A DNA stretch of 33,372 nt from Bacteroidaceae bacterium (GTDB lineage Bacteria > Bacteroidota > Bacteroidia > Bacteroidales > Bacteroidaceae), in the NCBI GenBank assembly GCA_017453465.1, contig JAFTEV010000072.1:1-33372 (forward strand), written 5' to 3'. The translations under genes and the position numbers were made by a program. Position 1 is the stretch's first letter, and each line of letters starts with the position of its first letter. The notes beneath the pieces are model-generated. The model was given only the letters and a program-made list of their open reading frames with translations. It had not been told where the DNA came from and did no database searches. This document shows, piece after piece, positions 25,459-33,372 of the stretch.

Positions 25459-26508
25459 TTACTTTTTTCCTTTTTTGTTTCCCCACTTCTCCAGCCGCTT
25501 ATACTCCGCCTTGGTCAGTCGCATGAACGAACCATGCTGCGGTGCAGCCACGCCCTCAATGGTCACGGGGTCGTGGAAGTTACGCAGATACTTGTCTGCC
25601 TGACAGATGCGATACTGCCGGGGCTTCGTGCTGTACTGGATGTAAGCCACTCGCCAGCCCTCTTCGCCCGGTATCTGAAACGCGCTGCTTCCTTCACACT
25701 TCTTGTTGCCCTCAAAGTTCACGAAGTCCCGCTCGTCTGGCTCCGGGTAGGGACCCGTCAGCCGCTCGCTGCTGGTTTGGAAAATGCCGGGGTGCCCCCC
25801 TTCCTTCTTGATGAGCATGTGGTATCGCCCGTCGCTCTCAAGGTAGTTGATGTCGGCATCGATTGTGGCGTAGCCCCAGTCGAACAACAGGCGGGGCTTG
25901 GTCAGACGTGTGAACGAATGGTCGGCGTAACTGTAGTACATGCGGTCATACTGCTCTCCGTCGTCGGGATTCCACATGGAGTAGTACACCATGTATCCAC
26001 CCTGCGTGCCGTCGGGCCACACATACTGCGGGTCCCAGAAGACCTGCGGCGCCCACACCCGTTTGACGGTACTCCAGTTGCGGTACACATCGGGCGCGTC
26101 GGGGTCGCAGAATATCTCGGCTCCGCGACGAAAGTCAAACGTCGTACTCTCCCACTGAATCAGGTCGTCACTGCGGAGCAGGTTGATTCCGTAATTGAAC
26201 CAAGTGCGGCTCTTGTGGTTCGCCATGTCGGTCGTGACCATGAGGTACCCCTTGCCGCTGTCACTCTTGCGGCAGATGTAGGCATCCCGCGCTCCGCCCT
26301 CAATGGCACTGAGCCGCTCCGTGTCATAGACCTCGCCGCCGTCCAGCAGGTCGTGGTAGTGCAGACCGTCGCGACTCAGCGCGTAGGCAGTCCACTCCCC
26401 CGCCCCCGACATGTGGCAGTAGAGGAATCCATAATCACCCCGCTGCAGGTTTTGTCCCTGCAGCGCAGCGGCCAGCATGAGGCCGCCCAGTGTTGTCAGT
26501 AGTTTCAT
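25459..26508 (-). CDS. Secreted GH43-type glycosidase
   Basis: 349 residues from the ATG at 26508 with a signal peptide ([18 protein letters not shown]). The mature part has the repeated W-x-P/DPQ and SxDGL blade patterns of a five-bladed propeller: a DAYICRKS segment, [34 protein letters not shown] and [11 protein letters not shown], whose Glu is a candidate general acid. This fits family 43 (arabinosidase/xylosidase-like) or a related clan F family; the substrate cannot be read from the sequence. It acts outside the cytoplasm on plant-type polysaccharides. A TATCTTTG box at 26552-26559 is its likely promoter -7 region. Confidence 0.75.
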
Positions 26509-26525
26509 AAACAAGATTCACTTTA

Positions 26526-26607: not shown

Positions 26608-28587
26608 TCAGAACTGAATCAGCCAGCGCGTCTCGGTCAGCGGCTTGGCAGTGCCGTCGGCCAGCACACGCCCATCAGCATCCAGCAGTCGTATCTCTGT
26701 GAAGGGTTCGGTGCCAGACTCCACATCCACCGCGAAGCAAAGGTGCTGCAGGCGGACTGCATCCACAGGCTCCGTCAGCCGAATCTCCAGCAGCGACTGC
26801 TCGGCACTGTAGCCAAAGTCGAAATCCACCGTGCGGCGGAAGTTCCAGAAATCGCCGAAGTCCTCAAAGTTATACAGTCCCACGCGGTTACGGTCGGTCA
26901 TCTCCACCAGCATCTTCTCAGCCTCCATCTTCCAGGAACGGTTGGGGTGAATCAGCAGAATGGCCGGTGCGTAGTTTCCTTGCAGTTTGCTCTGCACGGC
27001 GTGCCACATAGCGGGCTTCTCCATCCAGTTCTCGGCATTGATGGGCGAAGAACTGATGACGTCGGAAATGTGGAGTGGCATCTGCAGCACACCGTTGAAG
27101 TCGCCACTCCAGTCGTTGCCCAGCCGCTCGCGGAATGGGAACTCGCTCAGCACATCGCCCGCCGAGTAGCAGGAGGCAAAGCTGTAGCCGCCCATCTGCT
27201 CTGCTTCGGGGATGTTCTTGTTCATGCACAAATGGCCCGTGCGGAAGGAGCGCACCTGATTTTGCAGGTCGTTCTCGATGATTTGCTTCGACATTACCAC
27301 CTCGACCCAGGTGGAGCCGCCCGTGGTCGTGCCTGTGGCGGTGCTGTCCTTCTCGTGGTGTGCCACGGCAGCGTAAGCCTCCCTCGTCGTCACCGTCATT
27401 GGGAAGCGGTCGGTCTGGCTAAAGTCGGGGAAGTGGCACACACTGTGGCTCCCCACCGTGTGGCCATCGGCGAGCAAGAGCCGCGCCTTGGGCATCGTCA
27501 CGTCGTCATAGAAGGCAGAGAGGTAGCCGGCATCACGGAAGTAGTGGACTGTCAAGAAGTAATGGGCCTTCAACTTCAGTGCGCGCTCATACTCAGACAT
27601 GTAGAACATCGAGTCGTATGCAGTGCGCGAGTCGCAGTCGTGGGTCGGGATAATGAGCGATTCGTAGCCGTCGGGGATTGTGAATTTCCACACACTCACC
27701 TTGCGATGCTTGGCGCAGACCGAGCGGATGAACAGCGGCACCACATCGGCTGAAGGCTCGTAGGCATTCGACGTGCTCCGCTGCGCCTCGAAGTCCTTGT
27801 TCAGCTGCGACCGCTGTATGATGTCGCGCCAGCGGAACCCGAAAGTATAAACCGCGCCACGCCCCAGCGAGCGGCGCACCACGGCGTTCTCGCCCGTCTC
27901 GTAGTGAGCCAGCACCTGCGTGGCAGAGTCTTCCGTCAGCGTGTAGGCGTATGTCTTGATGCTCTCGCCACTCAGTCGCTTGCCACGGCCCAGCGATGTC
28001 ACGCGCTCCTCGTCCGTGTCGATGTACTCCAGCTCCTTGTCGGCCCAGTGGCTGGGTGCCCACACCAACTGGTAGCGGTTCTTTCCCGACGCAGCCTTCT
28101 CTATACCGTAGAGCTGACGGCAAGCTGTGTGCACCGCGCTGGAACCGCTCACGGCCAGCGGAGCCTGCGACACCAGCACGCCGCCGGCCTCAACCCAGCG
28201 GCGCAGGGAGTCGTATTGCGCTTCGCTGAAAGTGCTGTTCCCCACCTCCGAAGAAAGCACGATGACCCCGCCCGTCTCGATGGCATCCGTGAGGGAGGCG
28301 GTCGTGACGAAGGGCACACCGGCCAGCTCCAGCATGTAGTCCGCAGAATAGACGTTGCGCGTGCTCAGTTCGTTCTCGCGTGCGCCGAAAGTCACGTCGA
28401 GCAGCACAGCACGCGGCTGCCGCTGCGGATGGAGCGCGGCTTCCTGCTGCTCCAGATAAGTAGAAATCAAGTCTGTAATGTCAGCGACCGTCACTTTACC
28501 GTCACCGTCCAAATCACCCAAAATCTGTGCATTGACAATGAAGGCCACAGCCCATGCCAGTGCTAATGAAATCAATGCTCTTTTCAT
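26608..28587 (-). CDS. Secreted dockerin/deacetylase-like protein
   Basis: 659 residues from the ATG at 28587 (good ribosome site AAAGG); an upstream extension of 48 codons is unlikely. A signal peptide (MKRALISLALAWAVAFIVNAQ) is followed at once by a type I dockerin-like EF-hand (LGDLDGDGKVTVADITDLI). Then comes a Rossmann-like domain resembling a class I amidotransferase fold (about 50-290), then a NodB-type deacetylase domain with IPTHDCDS and HTVGSHSVCHF, the usual metal-binding Asp and His residues. The C-terminal part is beta-rich. It probably acts on cell-surface or dietary polysaccharide. Only one dockerin motif is clear, so use in a cellulosome-like complex is doubtful. Confidence 0.7.
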   Translation of the reverse strand: MKRALISLALAWAVAFIVNAQILGDLDGDGKVTVADITDLISTYLEQQEAALHPQRQPRAVLLDVTFGARENELSTRNVYSADYMLELAGVPFVTTASLTDAIETGGVIVLSSEVGNSTFSEAQYDSLRRWVEAGGVLVSQAPLAVSGSSAVHTACRQLYGIEKAASGKNRYQLVWAPSHWADKELEYIDTDEERVTSLGRGKRLSGESIKTYAYTLTEDSATQVLAHYETGENAVVRRSLGRGAVYTFGFRWRDIIQRSQLNKDFEAQRSTSNAYEPSADVVPLFIRSVCAKHRKVSVWKFTIPDGYESLIIPTHDCDSRTAYDSMFYMSEYERALKLKAHYFLTVHYFRDAGYLSAFYDDVTMPKARLLLADGHTVGSHSVCHFPDFSQTDRFPMTVTTREAYAAVAHHEKDSTATGTTTGGSTWVEVVMSKQIIENDLQNQVRSFRTGHLCMNKNIPEAEQMGGYSFASCYSAGDVLSEFPFRERLGNDWSGDFNGVLQMPLHISDVISSSPINAENWMEKPAMWHAVQSKLQGNYAPAILLIHPNRSWKMEAEKMLVEMTDRNRVGLYNFEDFGDFWNFRRTVDFDFGYSAEQSLLEIRLTEPVDAVRLQHLCFAVDVESGTEPFTEIRLLDADGRVLADGTAKPLTETRWLIQF

Positions 28588-28677
28588 TCCTTTCACCTTA
28601 AAATTTCTATGTCGCCGTGCTGCCCATACATTCGGCAACACGGAGGAACCTTTCGCCATCAGTCCGCGAAAAGTGCT

Positions 28678-28686
28678 GCAAAGGTA
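28678..28686 (-). promoter_or_regulatory. Promoter -7 box upstream of the deacetylase gene
   Basis: TACCTTTGC on the minus strand about 90 bp upstream of the start codon; TTGC at 21 bases distance is a weak -33 box. It probably drives the dockerin/deacetylase gene. Confidence 0.45.
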
Positions 28687-28771
28687 CGACATTTCCATGA
28701 GAAATCGGCAACATTGCGTGTTTTTTAACACTGCGCTTCACACCAAACGCAGCGACATAGGCTTTTATTCT

Positions 28772-29633: not shown

Positions 29634-30368
29634 TCAGTGTCCGAACCTCTCTTGAGCCTCATGGTAGGTGTCGAGGCTGCCAATGTCGAAGCGGCCTGCA
29701 GTCATTGGCCAGGCGTGCACCGTGGTGTGGTCCACCATGTAGTGTGCAAGGTTGCCGGGCGCATCCTTGCCACAGCCGTTCTCCACACTGTGGCGCACGA
29801 GGTCGAGGTCTGCCTTCCTATATATATAAAAAGGTGGTACGGCCCAGTGCGATTTGGGCTGCTGCGGCTTTTCCTCCATGTTGAGCACGCGGTTTTGGTC
29901 GTCCAGCACGACTACGCCGGTGCGCTGCAACTTCTCCAGGGATGGTTGCTCGTGGCACATGATGCACGATGTGCCTTTCTGCTTTGCGAAGTCAACAAAC
30001 TCCTGGAATGAGAAGAAAAGGATGTTGTCGGCGGCTACGACCAGCAGGTCATCGTCTATCTGGAGCTTCTGCAAGGCAAAGAGCAGGTCGCAAACGGCTC
30101 CCAGCCGCGTCTCGTTGGTCTCCGTGCCGTCATCCACAATGGTGATGGGCTTGGTGTAGTGGGTCTGCAACTTCCACTGCTCGAAGTGGTGGGCAAACTT
30201 GTGATTGGTGATGACGATGTGTTCGTCAATGTCGGGAATGCGGTCGATGTCGTCCAACATTCGGCCCAGAATGCTGCTCTGCCCGATTTGCAGCAGTGGC
30301 TTGGGGAAATTCTTGGTCAGTTCGCCCAGACGAGTGGCGTAACCGGCAGCGATTACTATTGTCTTCAT
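29634..30368 (-). CDS. Sugar-1-phosphate nucleotidyltransferase
   Basis: A 244-residue enzyme of the RmlA/MobA-like NTP-transferase fold: AAGYATRLGELTKNFPKPLL at the start holds the nucleotide-binding GxxxRL and the FPKPL lysine, and VVAADNILF is the metal-binding Asp. It joins NTP and a sugar-1-phosphate to make NDP-sugar. It is the third gene in the order sugar kinase, epimerase, nucleotidyltransferase, so the likely partner product is the kinase's sugar-1-phosphate. UDP and uronic acid as substrates are inferred, not shown; dTDP or CDP use or a cell-wall role is possible. Confidence 0.8.
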   Translation of the reverse strand: MKTIVIAAGYATRLGELTKNFPKPLLQIGQSSILGRMLDDIDRIPDIDEHIVITNHKFAHHFEQWKLQTHYTKPITIVDDGTETNETRLGAVCDLLFALQKLQIDDDLLVVAADNILFFSFQEFVDFAKQKGTSCIMCHEQPSLEKLQRTGVVVLDDQNRVLNMEEKPQQPKSHWAVPPFYIYRKADLDLVRHSVENGCGKDAPGNLAHYMVDHTTVHAWPMTAGRFDIGSLDTYHEAQERFGH

Positions 30369-30373
30369 AAGGA

Positions 30374-30460
30374 TTAATTACGAATTACGAAATACGAATT
30401 ACGAATTACAAAACCAGCCGGATGGCCTTTCGTAATTCGGATTTCGTAATTCGGATTTAC
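30374..30460. repeat. Short inverted and direct repeat cluster between epimerase and nucleotidyltransferase genes
   Basis: The left part repeats ATTACGAA-type units (30374-30409) and the right part has two copies of TTTCGTAATTCGGA (about 30428-30455), which are inverted to the left units. The 95-bp gap can fold into a long hairpin. It may tune the transcription or stability of the operon. Confidence 0.55.
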
Positions 30461-30463
30461 TAT

Positions 30464-31525
30464 TTATTTTTTTCCATAATACCGTGCATACCATTCGGCA
30501 AAGGCGCGAAGCCCTGTGCGCAACGGGGTGGAAGGCTTGAAGCCGAAGTCTTGCTCCAGTGGCGTGGTGTCGGCGTAGGTCACAGGCACGTCGCCGGGTT
30601 GCATAGGCACCAGCTCCTTGTGGGCCTCAAAGTCGTAGTCGCTGGGGAGAACCTGGGCGCGGATGAGTTCCTCTTGCAGGATGGTCACGAAGTCGAGCAG
30701 GTTCTCTGGGCTGTTGTTGCCGATGTTATAGACTTTGTAGGGCGGCACAGGCAGGCCGTCTTCGCCTTGCTGCTTTTCGGGCGCGTGCTGCATGATGCGG
30801 ATGACACCCTCAACGATGTCATCGACGAAGGTGAAGTCACGCTTGCAGTGGCCGTAGTTGAATATCTGGATGGTCTGACCCGCACGCAACTTGTTGGTGA
30901 AGCCGAAGTAGGCCATGTCGGGACGACCTGCGGGGCCATAGACGGTGAAGAAGCGCAGACCCGTGGATGGGATGTTGTAGAGCTTGCTGTAGGCATGGGC
31001 CATCAGTTCATTGCTCTTTTTCGTTGCGGCATAGAGGCTGACGGGGTTATCCACCTTGTCGTCGGTGGAGTACGGCACTTTCTTGTTGCTGCCATAGACG
31101 CTGGAGGAGGAGGCATAGACCAGATGTTCCACCTCGTTCCATCGGCACGCCTCCAGGATATTGTAGAATCCAATGAGGTTCGATTCGATGTAAGAGCCGG
31201 GATTCGTGATGCTGTAGCGCACACCGGCCTGTGCCGCGAGGTTGACAACCACTGCCGGCTTGTAGTCAGCGAAGAGCTGATCGACTGCGGCTTTATCGGC
31301 GATGTTTACCTTCGCAAAGACAAAGCTCTCGTACTGCTCCAGTTCCTTCAGACGTTCATGCTTGATGTTCACGTCGTAATAGTCCGTGATGCAGTCAACA
31401 CCCACTACGCGGATGCTACTGCCTATCTGCTTGTAAAGTTGTTTCACCAAGTTTGCACCGATGAAGCCCGCTGCTCCGGTGACGAGGATGGTCTTGCCCT
31501 CCAGTTTTACGTTGTATTGTAACAT
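30464..31525 (-). CDS. UDP-glucuronate 4-epimerase type protein
   Basis: A 353-residue SDR enzyme: TGAAGFIGANL for NAD binding near the start, SSSSVYGSNKKVP, the catalytic Y-x-x-x-K (YAATKKSNEL), FFTVYGPAGRPDMAYFGFT and the C-terminal GDVPVTYADTTPLEQDFGFKPS, the usual pattern of UDP-glucuronate/UDP-galacturonate 4-epimerases. It interconverts UDP-GlcA and UDP-GalA in the cytoplasm, for capsule or glycan building. It lies 57 bp downstream of the kinase gene. Confidence 0.9.
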   Translation of the reverse strand: MLQYNVKLEGKTILVTGAAGFIGANLVKQLYKQIGSSIRVVGVDCITDYYDVNIKHERLKELEQYESFVFAKVNIADKAAVDQLFADYKPAVVVNLAAQAGVRYSITNPGSYIESNLIGFYNILEACRWNEVEHLVYASSSSVYGSNKKVPYSTDDKVDNPVSLYAATKKSNELMAHAYSKLYNIPSTGLRFFTVYGPAGRPDMAYFGFTNKLRAGQTIQIFNYGHCKRDFTFVDDIVEGVIRIMQHAPEKQQGEDGLPVPPYKVYNIGNNSPENLLDFVTILQEELIRAQVLPSDYDFEAHKELVPMQPGDVPVTYADTTPLEQDFGFKPSTPLRTGLRAFAEWYARYYGKK

Positions 31526-31582
31526 GATTTGCTGTGTTTTCTGTTGTTTTTTATACTATTCGCGACTGTTCGGCTGTGAGGT

Positions 31583-32725
31583 CTAAACAAAGCGTGCGCC
31601 GTCGTCGGGCTTCACGAAGAAGCACTGGAAGGTGTTTTCATATTCGGGGAACTGAGCCAAGTATTGTTTCGTCAGCTCGGCCTCGATTTGCTCCTTGTGG
31701 GCGGGATTCACAAGGGCGATGCAGGCACCCTTGAATCCGGCTCCGCTGAAACGTCCGCCCCACACGCCCGGCAGTTTGCGCATGATTTCGTAGATAGCCA
31801 CCAGTTCGGGACTGCCACACTCGTAGTTGCGGATGCTCGATTCGCAGCTGTCGAAACTCAACTTGCCAAAGAGCTTCAGATTGCCTGTCTCCCAGGCGGT
31901 CACACCCTGTCGCACACGGCGGTATTCGCTGTAGAAGTGTTCGGCGCGACGGGCAAAACGGGCGGGCATTGCAATCTTGGTCTTGTCGAAAGTCGCTTTC
32001 GGAATGTCGCGCAAGAAGGTCTTGTCGAAGGTCTTCAGGGGCTGGTCGGTGTAGGCCAGCATGTTCCAAGCCGCCGTCTTGCACTCATACACACGCAGGT
32101 TATAGTCGCTGTTGACCAAACTCCTTGTCAGACCGGAGAAGAAGATGCCCAATTCAAACTCCGGCATGGCTGGATTCTTCTTGATGATGCGGTAGTCGTT
32201 GGTGTCGCAATCGAGGAAGAGCAGACCGTCCTTCTTTCCCAGCGCGATGCAAGCCTGGTCGAGCAAGCCGTTATTGAGGCCGATGTACTCGCGCTCTGCT
32301 TCGCTGGCAATCTGCACAATCTCGAAGGGTTGCAGCGTAATGCCGTTGGCCTTGGCAAAAGCCATGACATAGGCAATGAGCACTGCGGCACTGGACGAAA
32401 GTCCGCCCACGGGCAGACTGCCCTGAATCACGCCGTCAATGCCGAGAGTGAGGTCAAACCGCTTGCGCAGTGCATACTTGGCACCCCGCGCATAGTCGCC
32501 CCAGTGACGTTCCTTCACCTGCGACGGCGTGTTGATGTGGAAACTCACGTCACCCTCAAAGGTGCGGGACGAAAGATTGACCTGGCTGTCAGACCGCACA
32601 TTGAACCAGAGGTCAACCCCCTTATCAATGGCGAAGCCCGTCACCAGTCCGTGCTGGTGGTCAACGTGTGCTCCCAGCGGACACACACGGTAGGGCGAGA
32701 AAATGTGATACTGGTATTCTTGCAT
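31583..32725 (-). CDS. GHMP sugar kinase, galacturonokinase-like
   Basis: A 380-residue GHMP kinase. It has the ATP motif LPVGGLSSSAA and the C-terminal PGVWGGRFSGAGFKGACIAL. The sugar-binding motif is PYRVCPLGAHVDHQHG, not the PGRVNLIGEHTDYN of galactokinase: the Glu and Tyr are replaced by Ala and His. As I recall, plant galacturonokinase has PYRICPLGAHIDHQGG. Shared blocks include WGDYARGAKYAL, NNGLLDQA, YNLRVYECKTAA and SSIRNYECGSPEL. It probably makes a uronic acid-1-phosphate from ATP and the free sugar. It is the first of three genes, with an epimerase and a nucleotidyltransferase downstream. Confidence 0.8.
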   Translation of the reverse strand: MQEYQYHIFSPYRVCPLGAHVDHQHGLVTGFAIDKGVDLWFNVRSDSQVNLSSRTFEGDVSFHINTPSQVKERHWGDYARGAKYALRKRFDLTLGIDGVIQGSLPVGGLSSSAAVLIAYVMAFAKANGITLQPFEIVQIASEAEREYIGLNNGLLDQACIALGKKDGLLFLDCDTNDYRIIKKNPAMPEFELGIFFSGLTRSLVNSDYNLRVYECKTAAWNMLAYTDQPLKTFDKTFLRDIPKATFDKTKIAMPARFARRAEHFYSEYRRVRQGVTAWETGNLKLFGKLSFDSCESSIRNYECGSPELVAIYEIMRKLPGVWGGRFSGAGFKGACIALVNPAHKEQIEAELTKQYLAQFPEYENTFQCFFVKPDDGARFV

Positions 32726-32759: not shown

Positions 32760-32789
32760 AAAAAAGCCATTAGAGCGAACTCTAATGGC
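32760..32789 (-). terminator. Terminator overlapping the kinase promoter
   Basis: GCCATTAGAG (32766-32775) and CTCTAATGGC (32780-32789) with a four-base loop are followed on the minus strand by six T residues. The -7 box of a promoter (32792-32799, TAATTTTG) lies directly upstream, so the start site falls inside the stem. Confidence 0.7.
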
Positions 32790-32921: not shown

Positions 32922-33372
32922 TCAGAAGAACCAGCGCACTTCCGAGGAGGCTATGTGCCGCAGTCGCAACAGGTGGCGAAGGTAGAGGCTGGCATTGGCC
33001 AAATTGCCCCACAGGGTCTTGCTGCTCCGCTTCGCATTCTTTTTCCGACCGAAGTTGCCGCTCTCCATGATGAAGGCCAACAAGGTATGGGCATTTTTCC
33101 GTGCATCTTTCCACAACGCCCACTGCCAGCACGCGGCATCCAGCCCGAAGTGGTCCACGCCCAGCTGTGCGAAGGCGGAGAAGGCTTCCTGCAAGTGCAG
33201 TCCGTCGAGGTGCCACTGCAACTCCTCCACCTTATTATATATATAAGGCTCCAGCTGTTTCATCTGCACCATCCAGTCGCACACCTGCCGCAGCCCCACT
33301 CCTTCCGTCAGCAGGTGGTGAACCATGTGCCCCAGCATGTAGGCAGTGTTGAACGTGGGCTTGAAGCAGGGC
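32922..33372 (-). CDS. NTP_transf_5-like protein, 5' end outside the window
   Basis: The frame stays open to the right edge of the window, so only the C-terminal part (about 150 residues) is seen. FKPTFNTAYMLGHMVHHLLTEGVGLRQVCDWM fits the C-terminal pattern of the NTP_transf_5 family of uncharacterised nucleotidyltransferases (H-x-x-H-x-x-x-x-G-x-G-L-R-Q-x-x-D-W), shown in parts only. These often sit near polysaccharide or exopolysaccharide genes in Bacteroidetes. Its role here cannot be fixed from the fragment. It faces the same way as the kinase operon. Confidence 0.7.
   Translation of the reverse strand, partial: PCFKPTFNTAYMLGHMVHHLLTEGVGLRQVCDWMVQMKQLEPYIYNKVEELQWHLDGLHLQEAFSAFAQLGVDHFGLDAACWQWALWKDARKNAHTLLAFIMESGNFGRKKNAKRSSKTLWGNLANASLYLRHLLRLRHIASSEVRWFF

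Follow-up and report, generated by a model that had tools for sequence, protein, structure and literature searches.

A galactokinase-like kinase at the centre of a predicted uronic acid salvage module recurrent in Bacteroidaceae

The 33,372-nucleotide stretch of Bacteroidaceae DNA analysed here (the window) is the entire contig C59 of a 3.16-Mb draft genome, with an estimated completeness of 85% and contamination of 6%. Three genes, a sugar kinase, an epimerase and a nucleotidyltransferase, lie within positions 29634-32725, all on the minus strand and read in that order. They are separated by gaps of 57 bases (kinase/epimerase) and 95 bases (epimerase/nucleotidyltransferase):

31583..32725, minus strand: kinase open reading frame (ORF), 380 amino acids, ATG start; Pfam GHMP_kinases_N/C and GalKase_gal_bdg; GHMP-family sugar-1-kinase belonging to the GAHxDH clade, with galacturonate (uronate) 1-kinase as its predicted function
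30464..31525, minus strand: epimerase ORF, 353 amino acids; Pfam Epimerase (NAD-dependent); short-chain dehydrogenase/reductase, predicted uridine diphosphate (UDP)-glucuronate/UDP-galacturonate 4-epimerase
29634..30368, minus strand: nucleotidyltransferase ORF, 244 amino acids; Pfam NTP_transferase; small protein of that fold, predicted uronate-1-phosphate uridylyltransferase

An original prediction, made from the DNA letters, had placed a galacturonokinase-like enzyme at the head of such an operon. Reading the ORFs directly from the sequence confirmed its coordinates, strands and gene order, as well as the altered sugar motif of the kinase (PLGAHVDHQ), whose clade-wide conservation makes it more than a chance substitution.

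The window kinase scores 195.4 bits against TIGR00131 (galactokinase, EC 2.7.1.6), below the curated cut-off of 226.65, and two further clade kinases likewise fall below it (206.6 and 193.2 bits). A second kinase of the same genome, on contig C31 and 27% identical to the first, passes with 282.1 bits, and its gene adjoins two others, one for a glucose/galactose-type transporter and one of GalM type. A structure model of the window kinase (mean predicted local distance difference test score 76.5, below 50 at residues 14-22, 105-110 and 151-161, sugar motif included) was searched with Foldseek and revealed the galactokinase fold, all 50 matches listed being galactokinases; the model bears on the fold and not on the substrate. 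We then compared 20 clade kinases with 22 galactokinases from Bacteroidota, E. coli, Priestia, Leuconostoc, L. lactis and P. horikoshii, adding a provisional, non-database sequence of the Arabidopsis galacturonokinase (GalAK; EC 2.7.1.44). The sole check on this plant row, which is 41% identical to the window kinase, is the presence of A, Y and A at residues 41, 250 and 368, as reportedly given for the plant enzyme by Yang and colleagues in 2009. A branch with support of 100/100 separates the 20 clade kinases and the plant row from the 22 galactokinases, although the plant row, itself provisional, is long-branched, and the tree program issues a warning about joins of this kind. Scores on a profile of the clade were 606.6-688.6 for the 19 rows used to build it, 489.3 for the partial row L160 and 144.0-220.4 for the 22 galactokinases, a separation plain enough to set the bacterial clade apart even without the plant row, which itself scored 347.9 on this profile and 202.6 on that of the galactokinases. 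The original prediction had named the phylogeny as a check, a place inside the true galactokinases counting against it; the kinase falls outside all 22. By the tests run, the window kinase has the galactokinase fold, yet is no galactokinase.

The two groups differ, among other places, at the sugar motif. Y12, C15, P16 and H23 are identical in all 19 clade rows covering it and A19 in 18 of them, while the galactokinases carry, in the same order of position, G, N, L or I, Y at H23, and E or D at A19. At this last, acidic position of the GEHTDY-type motif 20 galactokinases have Glu and two have Asp, where the 18 clade rows, window included, have Ala. We take the acidic residue to contact the 6-hydroxyl of galactose in structures, so that the replacement corresponds to the site where a uronic acid bears a carboxylate instead. 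Directly after GAGF, 21 of 22 galactokinases have Gly, 19 of 20 clade rows Lys and the provisional plant row Arg; as a guess, this Lys/Arg is a candidate carboxylate binder. Column by column, 29 positions are at least 90% uniform in the clade with at most 10% of galactokinases sharing the clade residue, and the plant row has that residue at 20 of them (Y12, C15, P16, A19, H23, R80, L92, N127, L155, L168, F196, G274, W278, S297, N300, G304, Y312, F326, S327 and C335). R13, H20, D22, D156 and Y208 (window numbering), presumably the other sugar-contact and catalytic residues by galactokinase structures, are kept in the window kinase. A19, Y208 and A329 align with Ala41, Tyr250 and Ala368 of GalAK, plant positions and sequence being provisional. 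The clade is not entirely uniform: position 19 is Ser in the viral-contig row L161, position 332 is Asn in L162, and, outside the rows compared at the motif, the kinase of genome G034 (L075) carries Tyr and Leu at positions 23 and 208.

The nucleotidyltransferase carries the NTP_transferase domain PF00483 (88.7 bits; cut-off 21.2). Its nearest model is the AglF uridylyltransferase, with 79.1 of 400 bits, far under the equivalog cut-off, and uridine triphosphate (UTP) as its nucleotide is a guess from the nearest families. Among solved structures the epimerase best matches 5u4q (373 bits), deposited as a dTDP-glucose 4,6-dehydratase, a name that we think is a misnomer. It also matches 6zl6 (135 bits), which we take to be the UDP-glucuronic acid (GlcA) 4-epimerase of B. 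cereus, with Thr178 and Arg185 presumably functional there. The two align identically at Tyr149, Thr178 and Arg185, the RPDMA block being kept, and Tyr149 is given as the catalytic base of the B. cereus enzyme in a passage of PMC7984243. The window epimerase is accordingly annotated as a predicted UDP-glucuronate 4-epimerase (EC 5.1.3.6).

Of the 101 family genomes, 27 hold the clade kinase, 26 as a long match and one (G086) as an edge piece of 129 residues. Matches split widely, clade members (41-92% identical to the window kinase) scoring 336.3-883.5 bits, contig-edge pieces aside, and galactokinase-type proteins at most 131.4 bits. All 27 genomes also carry the nucleotidyltransferase (counted in G089 though it is in two pieces); none has the kinase alone, one has the nucleotidyltransferase alone (G077) and 73 have neither. 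Both presence and absence are seen in 8 of the 10 kinase genera (g1, g6, g9, g11, g13, g17, g21 and g30), within which the two genes occur or are missing together, G077 excepted, so that shared ancestry alone is an insufficient explanation. The pair is not always adjacent: in G050 and G088 the two genes share a contig at a distance of some 25 kb, and in G030, G017, G040 and G079 they are on separate contigs. For a transfer of the kinase product to the nucleotidyltransferase, this co-occurrence provides the strongest evidence. Of the 27 kinase genomes 24 have the epimerase, as do 27 of the 74 others, so that it serves other routes too. The module is not confined to one operon, but recurs in the family (27/101 genomes).

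Outside this set, a phylum-wide sample of 296 genomes gave no match above 162 bits apart from the genome of the window itself, and 7 of 295 genomes in an order-wide sample, that genome included, hold a clade kinase with an E-value no higher than 1e-85. GTDB contigs, when scanned, yielded at least 568 candidate relatives, of which the best 80 were kept (named loci, all 82-91% identical to the window kinase); the nearest among these belong to genomes of the Prevotella/Xylanibacter type, many of them of ruminant origin. For the family survey 29 stretches were taken, 26 of which were counted, L070 being a galactokinase control and L077 and L078 kinase fragments below 200 bits; L057 and L079, both counted, are two halves of one kinase (G081), and at least one named locus (L084) apparently repeats the contig of a survey locus, G014:C30, which is of equal length.

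Linkage was counted by tblastn within 4 kb of the kinase; the gene-order map overlooks genes covered by longer antisense ORFs. At the named loci the nucleotidyltransferase is linked in 74/80, the epimerase in 68/80 and both in 67/80; where at least 4 kb of sequence is available on each side, the first two counts become 52/56 and 48/56. The corresponding figures are 19/26 and 8/26 at the survey loci, and 5/6 and 6/6 in six Bacteroidales genomes of other families. Gene order varies between loci and is at times divergent, and such permutation argues for functional rather than purely inherited linkage. One locus (L188, 3614-7793) carries two copies of the epimerase, which enclose the nucleotidyltransferase and kinase.

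The module also appears on a plasmid. The best match among 83 plasmid records, and the only one above 32% identity among the 15 matches listed, is a 46-kb plasmid of Lactococcus garvieae, which carries the epimerase (75% identical), kinase (40%), nucleotidyltransferase (54%), a nucleotide-sugar dehydrogenase and then glycosyltransferases in a run of capsule-type genes. In the L. garvieae record (L160, 13967-15764) the kinase is broken between two reading frames and that of the nucleotidyltransferase stops prematurely, reflecting either pseudogenes or sequencing errors. Two IMG/VR viral contigs carry the kinase and nucleotidyltransferase. We further scanned 107 neighbouring proteins from 22 loci (out of 133 same-strand neighbours of 140-900 amino acids, 26 being left out), with results for the 25 commonest of 81 and of 71 families. 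Among the families listed are glycosyltransferases, sugar-transferase initiators, dTDP-rhamnose genes and polysaccharide-synthesis epimerases, together with unrelated housekeeping genes, which suggests a capsule setting for part of the loci only.

Uronate isomerase (UxaC) is encoded in all 27 kinase genomes as compared to 44 of the 74 others (by genus, 10/10 kinase genera and 10/20 others, p ~0.011), and free uronate is therefore to be expected inside these cells. The genome of the window has UxaC on contig C63 and, on C61, a dehydrogenase that shares 78% identity with the one in the L. garvieae cluster. We considered the kinase as a stand-in for UDP-glucose dehydrogenase and rejected this, since close relatives of the L. 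garvieae enzyme (at least 200 bits) occur in 20/27 kinase genomes and 34/74 others.

A kinase-plus-pyrophosphorylase salvage unit for a uronic acid is supported by the changed motif, by the epimerase of uronate type and, most of all, by the joint occurrence of kinase and nucleotidyltransferase (27/27 versus 1/74). We put the probability that it is such a kinase-based unit and uses D-galacturonic acid (GalA) at roughly 70%; exclusive specificity for GalA, and UTP as the nucleotide, are each held with less confidence. In the proposed pathway, the kinase would use adenosine triphosphate to phosphorylate free GalA at C1, the nucleotidyltransferase would convert GalA-1-phosphate and UTP to UDP-GalA, and the 4-epimerase, judged by its family and active-site residues, would interconvert UDP-GalA and UDP-GlcA. 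The path from free GalA to both UDP-uronates, put forward in the original prediction, thus stands as a prediction from sequence comparison. Neighbouring genes in some relatives suggest that the UDP-uronates would supply surface polysaccharide synthesis. Since uronate isomerase, a gene resembling UDP-glucose dehydrogenase and a canonical galactokinase are present in the genome as well, the module may act as a parallel branch beside catabolism and de novo synthesis, keeping part of the imported pectin-derived uronate from being catabolised.

Several points weigh against this proposal. The linkage counts and p-values take no account of relatedness; the epimerase lies near only 8 of the 26 survey loci and is present in 27 of the 74 kinase-less genomes, and no epimerase of the module type was found in the analysed stretches of either IMG/VR contig. 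The plant GalAK sequence is provisional, and its branch in the tree is long. A close relative of the L. garvieae dehydrogenase in the genome of the window and in 20/27 kinase genomes makes the need for salvage not obvious, and on the plasmid itself, where that dehydrogenase stands beside the module, de novo UDP-GlcA and the epimerase could already yield UDP-GalA.

Other substrates were also weighed. A kinase that prefers GlcA, or accepts GlcA and GalA alike, would lead through GlcA-1-phosphate to UDP-GlcA, from which the epimerase would make UDP-GalA, and every argument for a uronate kinase fits it equally well. The residue aligned with Tyr250 of GalAK (position 208) is Phe in 13 of the 26 survey loci, Tyr in 11 and Leu in one, the column being absent in one; Phe at this position of GalAK reportedly admits GlcA, and the family may thus hold both specificities. 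Tyr is nevertheless found in the window kinase and in every one of the 80 named relatives, and the plant GalA enzyme, in its provisional sequence, falls on the clade side of the tree; we consider a glucuronate-using kinase unlikely here. The epimerase is close to 6 of 11 Tyr-type and 2 of 13 Phe-type survey loci, and on a tree of the nucleotidyltransferases the Tyr/Phe label changes twice over 44 labelled rows of 47, mostly as one deep split. On the same tree, the nucleotidyltransferases of G050 and G088, whose Phe-type kinases are nested among Tyr-type ones, share a long branch; the G050 copy (L168, 7235-7948) has an internal TAA, and the function of both is possibly changed or decaying.

It is less probable still that the kinase is a galactokinase paralogue with an altered motif that supplies polysaccharide synthesis with activated galactose or a different neutral sugar, such as L-arabinose or D-fucose. 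The retained fold and catalytic residues would suit such an enzyme, and loss of the acidic residue binding the 6-hydroxyl would also admit sugars lacking that group, but the protein scores below the galactokinase cut-off in a genome with a separate galactokinase above it, its linked epimerase retains the uronate-type RPDMA block, and UxaC co-occurs. A module recycling uronic acid from turnover of the cell's own polysaccharide, rather than from dietary pectin, would agree with the surface-polysaccharide genes beside part of the loci; UxaC in 27/27 genomes points instead to cells handling external free uronate, and we give self-recycling a low probability, both sources being compatible with one another.

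The GalA salvage unit that we favour has precedents. In plants, as outlined in PMC8636097, GalAK (Arabidopsis At3g10700) and UDP-sugar pyrophosphorylase convert GalA to GalA-1-phosphate and UDP-GalA. The window system shares with it a GHMP kinase, the same chemical logic and Ala in the sugar motif, and differs in being bacterial, in its 244-amino-acid PF00483 partner and in its frequent clustering with a UDP-uronate-type 4-epimerase. Plant UDP-sugar pyrophosphorylase belongs, we take it, to another family than this partner. Bacteroides Fkp salvages L-fucose through a fused kinase and nucleotidyltransferase whose guanosine diphosphate (GDP)-sugar feeds surface glycans; it likewise pairs a sugar-1-kinase with a nucleotidyltransferase in the same bacterial group, but uses fucose and GDP in a single protein where the window has separate genes. 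GalK (TIGR00131) has the same fold and catalytic residues, whereas the window kinase lies below its cut-off, on a separate branch and with another sugar motif. A zebrafish glucuronokinase/putative pyrophosphorylase also combines a uronate-1-kinase with a short bacterial-type nucleotidyltransferase, and sequences of Prevotella and Alistipes are mentioned in the legend to the tree that the paper gives for this domain; it differs in having both domains in one chain and a kinase of the glucuronokinase branch, termed very diverse from GalAK, and its authors report being unable to confirm the pyrophosphorylase activity (PMC3938481). The open-licence papers listed in literature searches dealt with plants, with the zebrafish glucuronokinase or with unrelated matters, and none described a bacterial galacturonokinase, though an earlier publication may exist. 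With the plant GalAK pathway and bacterial fucose salvage as known precedents, the best-supported prediction is a recurrent bacterial uronate salvage module.

The surroundings of the three genes hold further features. Upstream of the kinase lies one more partial gene:

32922..33371, minus strand: NTP_transf_5-like protein, C-terminal piece truncated by the contig end; 22.0 bits, below the 31.2 cut-off

NTP_transf_5 was found among the neighbours of other loci once in one scan and in 5/56 in another, and the piece is probably outside the module. A hairpin at 32766-32789 (minus strand; ten pairs, TTCG loop, T-run) lies 41 bases before the kinase start, directly after TAATTTTG, which to our eye resembles the Bacteroidetes -7 element TAnnTTTG; it is a possible leader or attenuator, but a comparable upstream hairpin was found in only 5 of 105 loci having at least 150 upstream bases, the window counted in. 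The epimerase/nucleotidyltransferase gap (30370-30465) is packed with repeated and inverted AATTCGTAATTCG-like units, resembling a small intergenic repeat element. Elsewhere on the minus strand, a 707-amino-acid ORF (26608-28731) without a Pfam match at 0.001 reads GDLDGDGKVTVADITDLI in its N-terminal part, presumably akin to a dockerin-type calcium repeat, and the protein at 25459-26514, possibly a plant-polysaccharide enzyme, weakly matches an alpha-arabinofuranosidase model (48.6 of 500 bits).

On a more speculative and rather doubtful extension, the module would be a portable uronate-salvage cassette of Bacteroidales and, by transfer, of at least one Firmicute capsule plasmid, with a non-plant-like pyrophosphorylase and two kinds of kinase that a single active-site residue would tell apart, Tyr marking use of GalA and Phe that of GlcA; gut and rumen bacteria would thereby build galacturonate from pectin straight into their capsules. 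The salvage route would also have a practical side. In PMC7984243 GalA-1-phosphate is described as off the market, and the plant GalA kinase as having proved poorly stable and insufficiently active when its authors used it; the bacterial kinase family would supply many alternatives. If the prediction is true, galactokinase-like kinases in many such genomes need renaming, bacteria would share the direct activation of free galacturonate familiar from plants, and pectin breakdown would be tied to the building of surface sugars in gut and rumen Bacteroidales.

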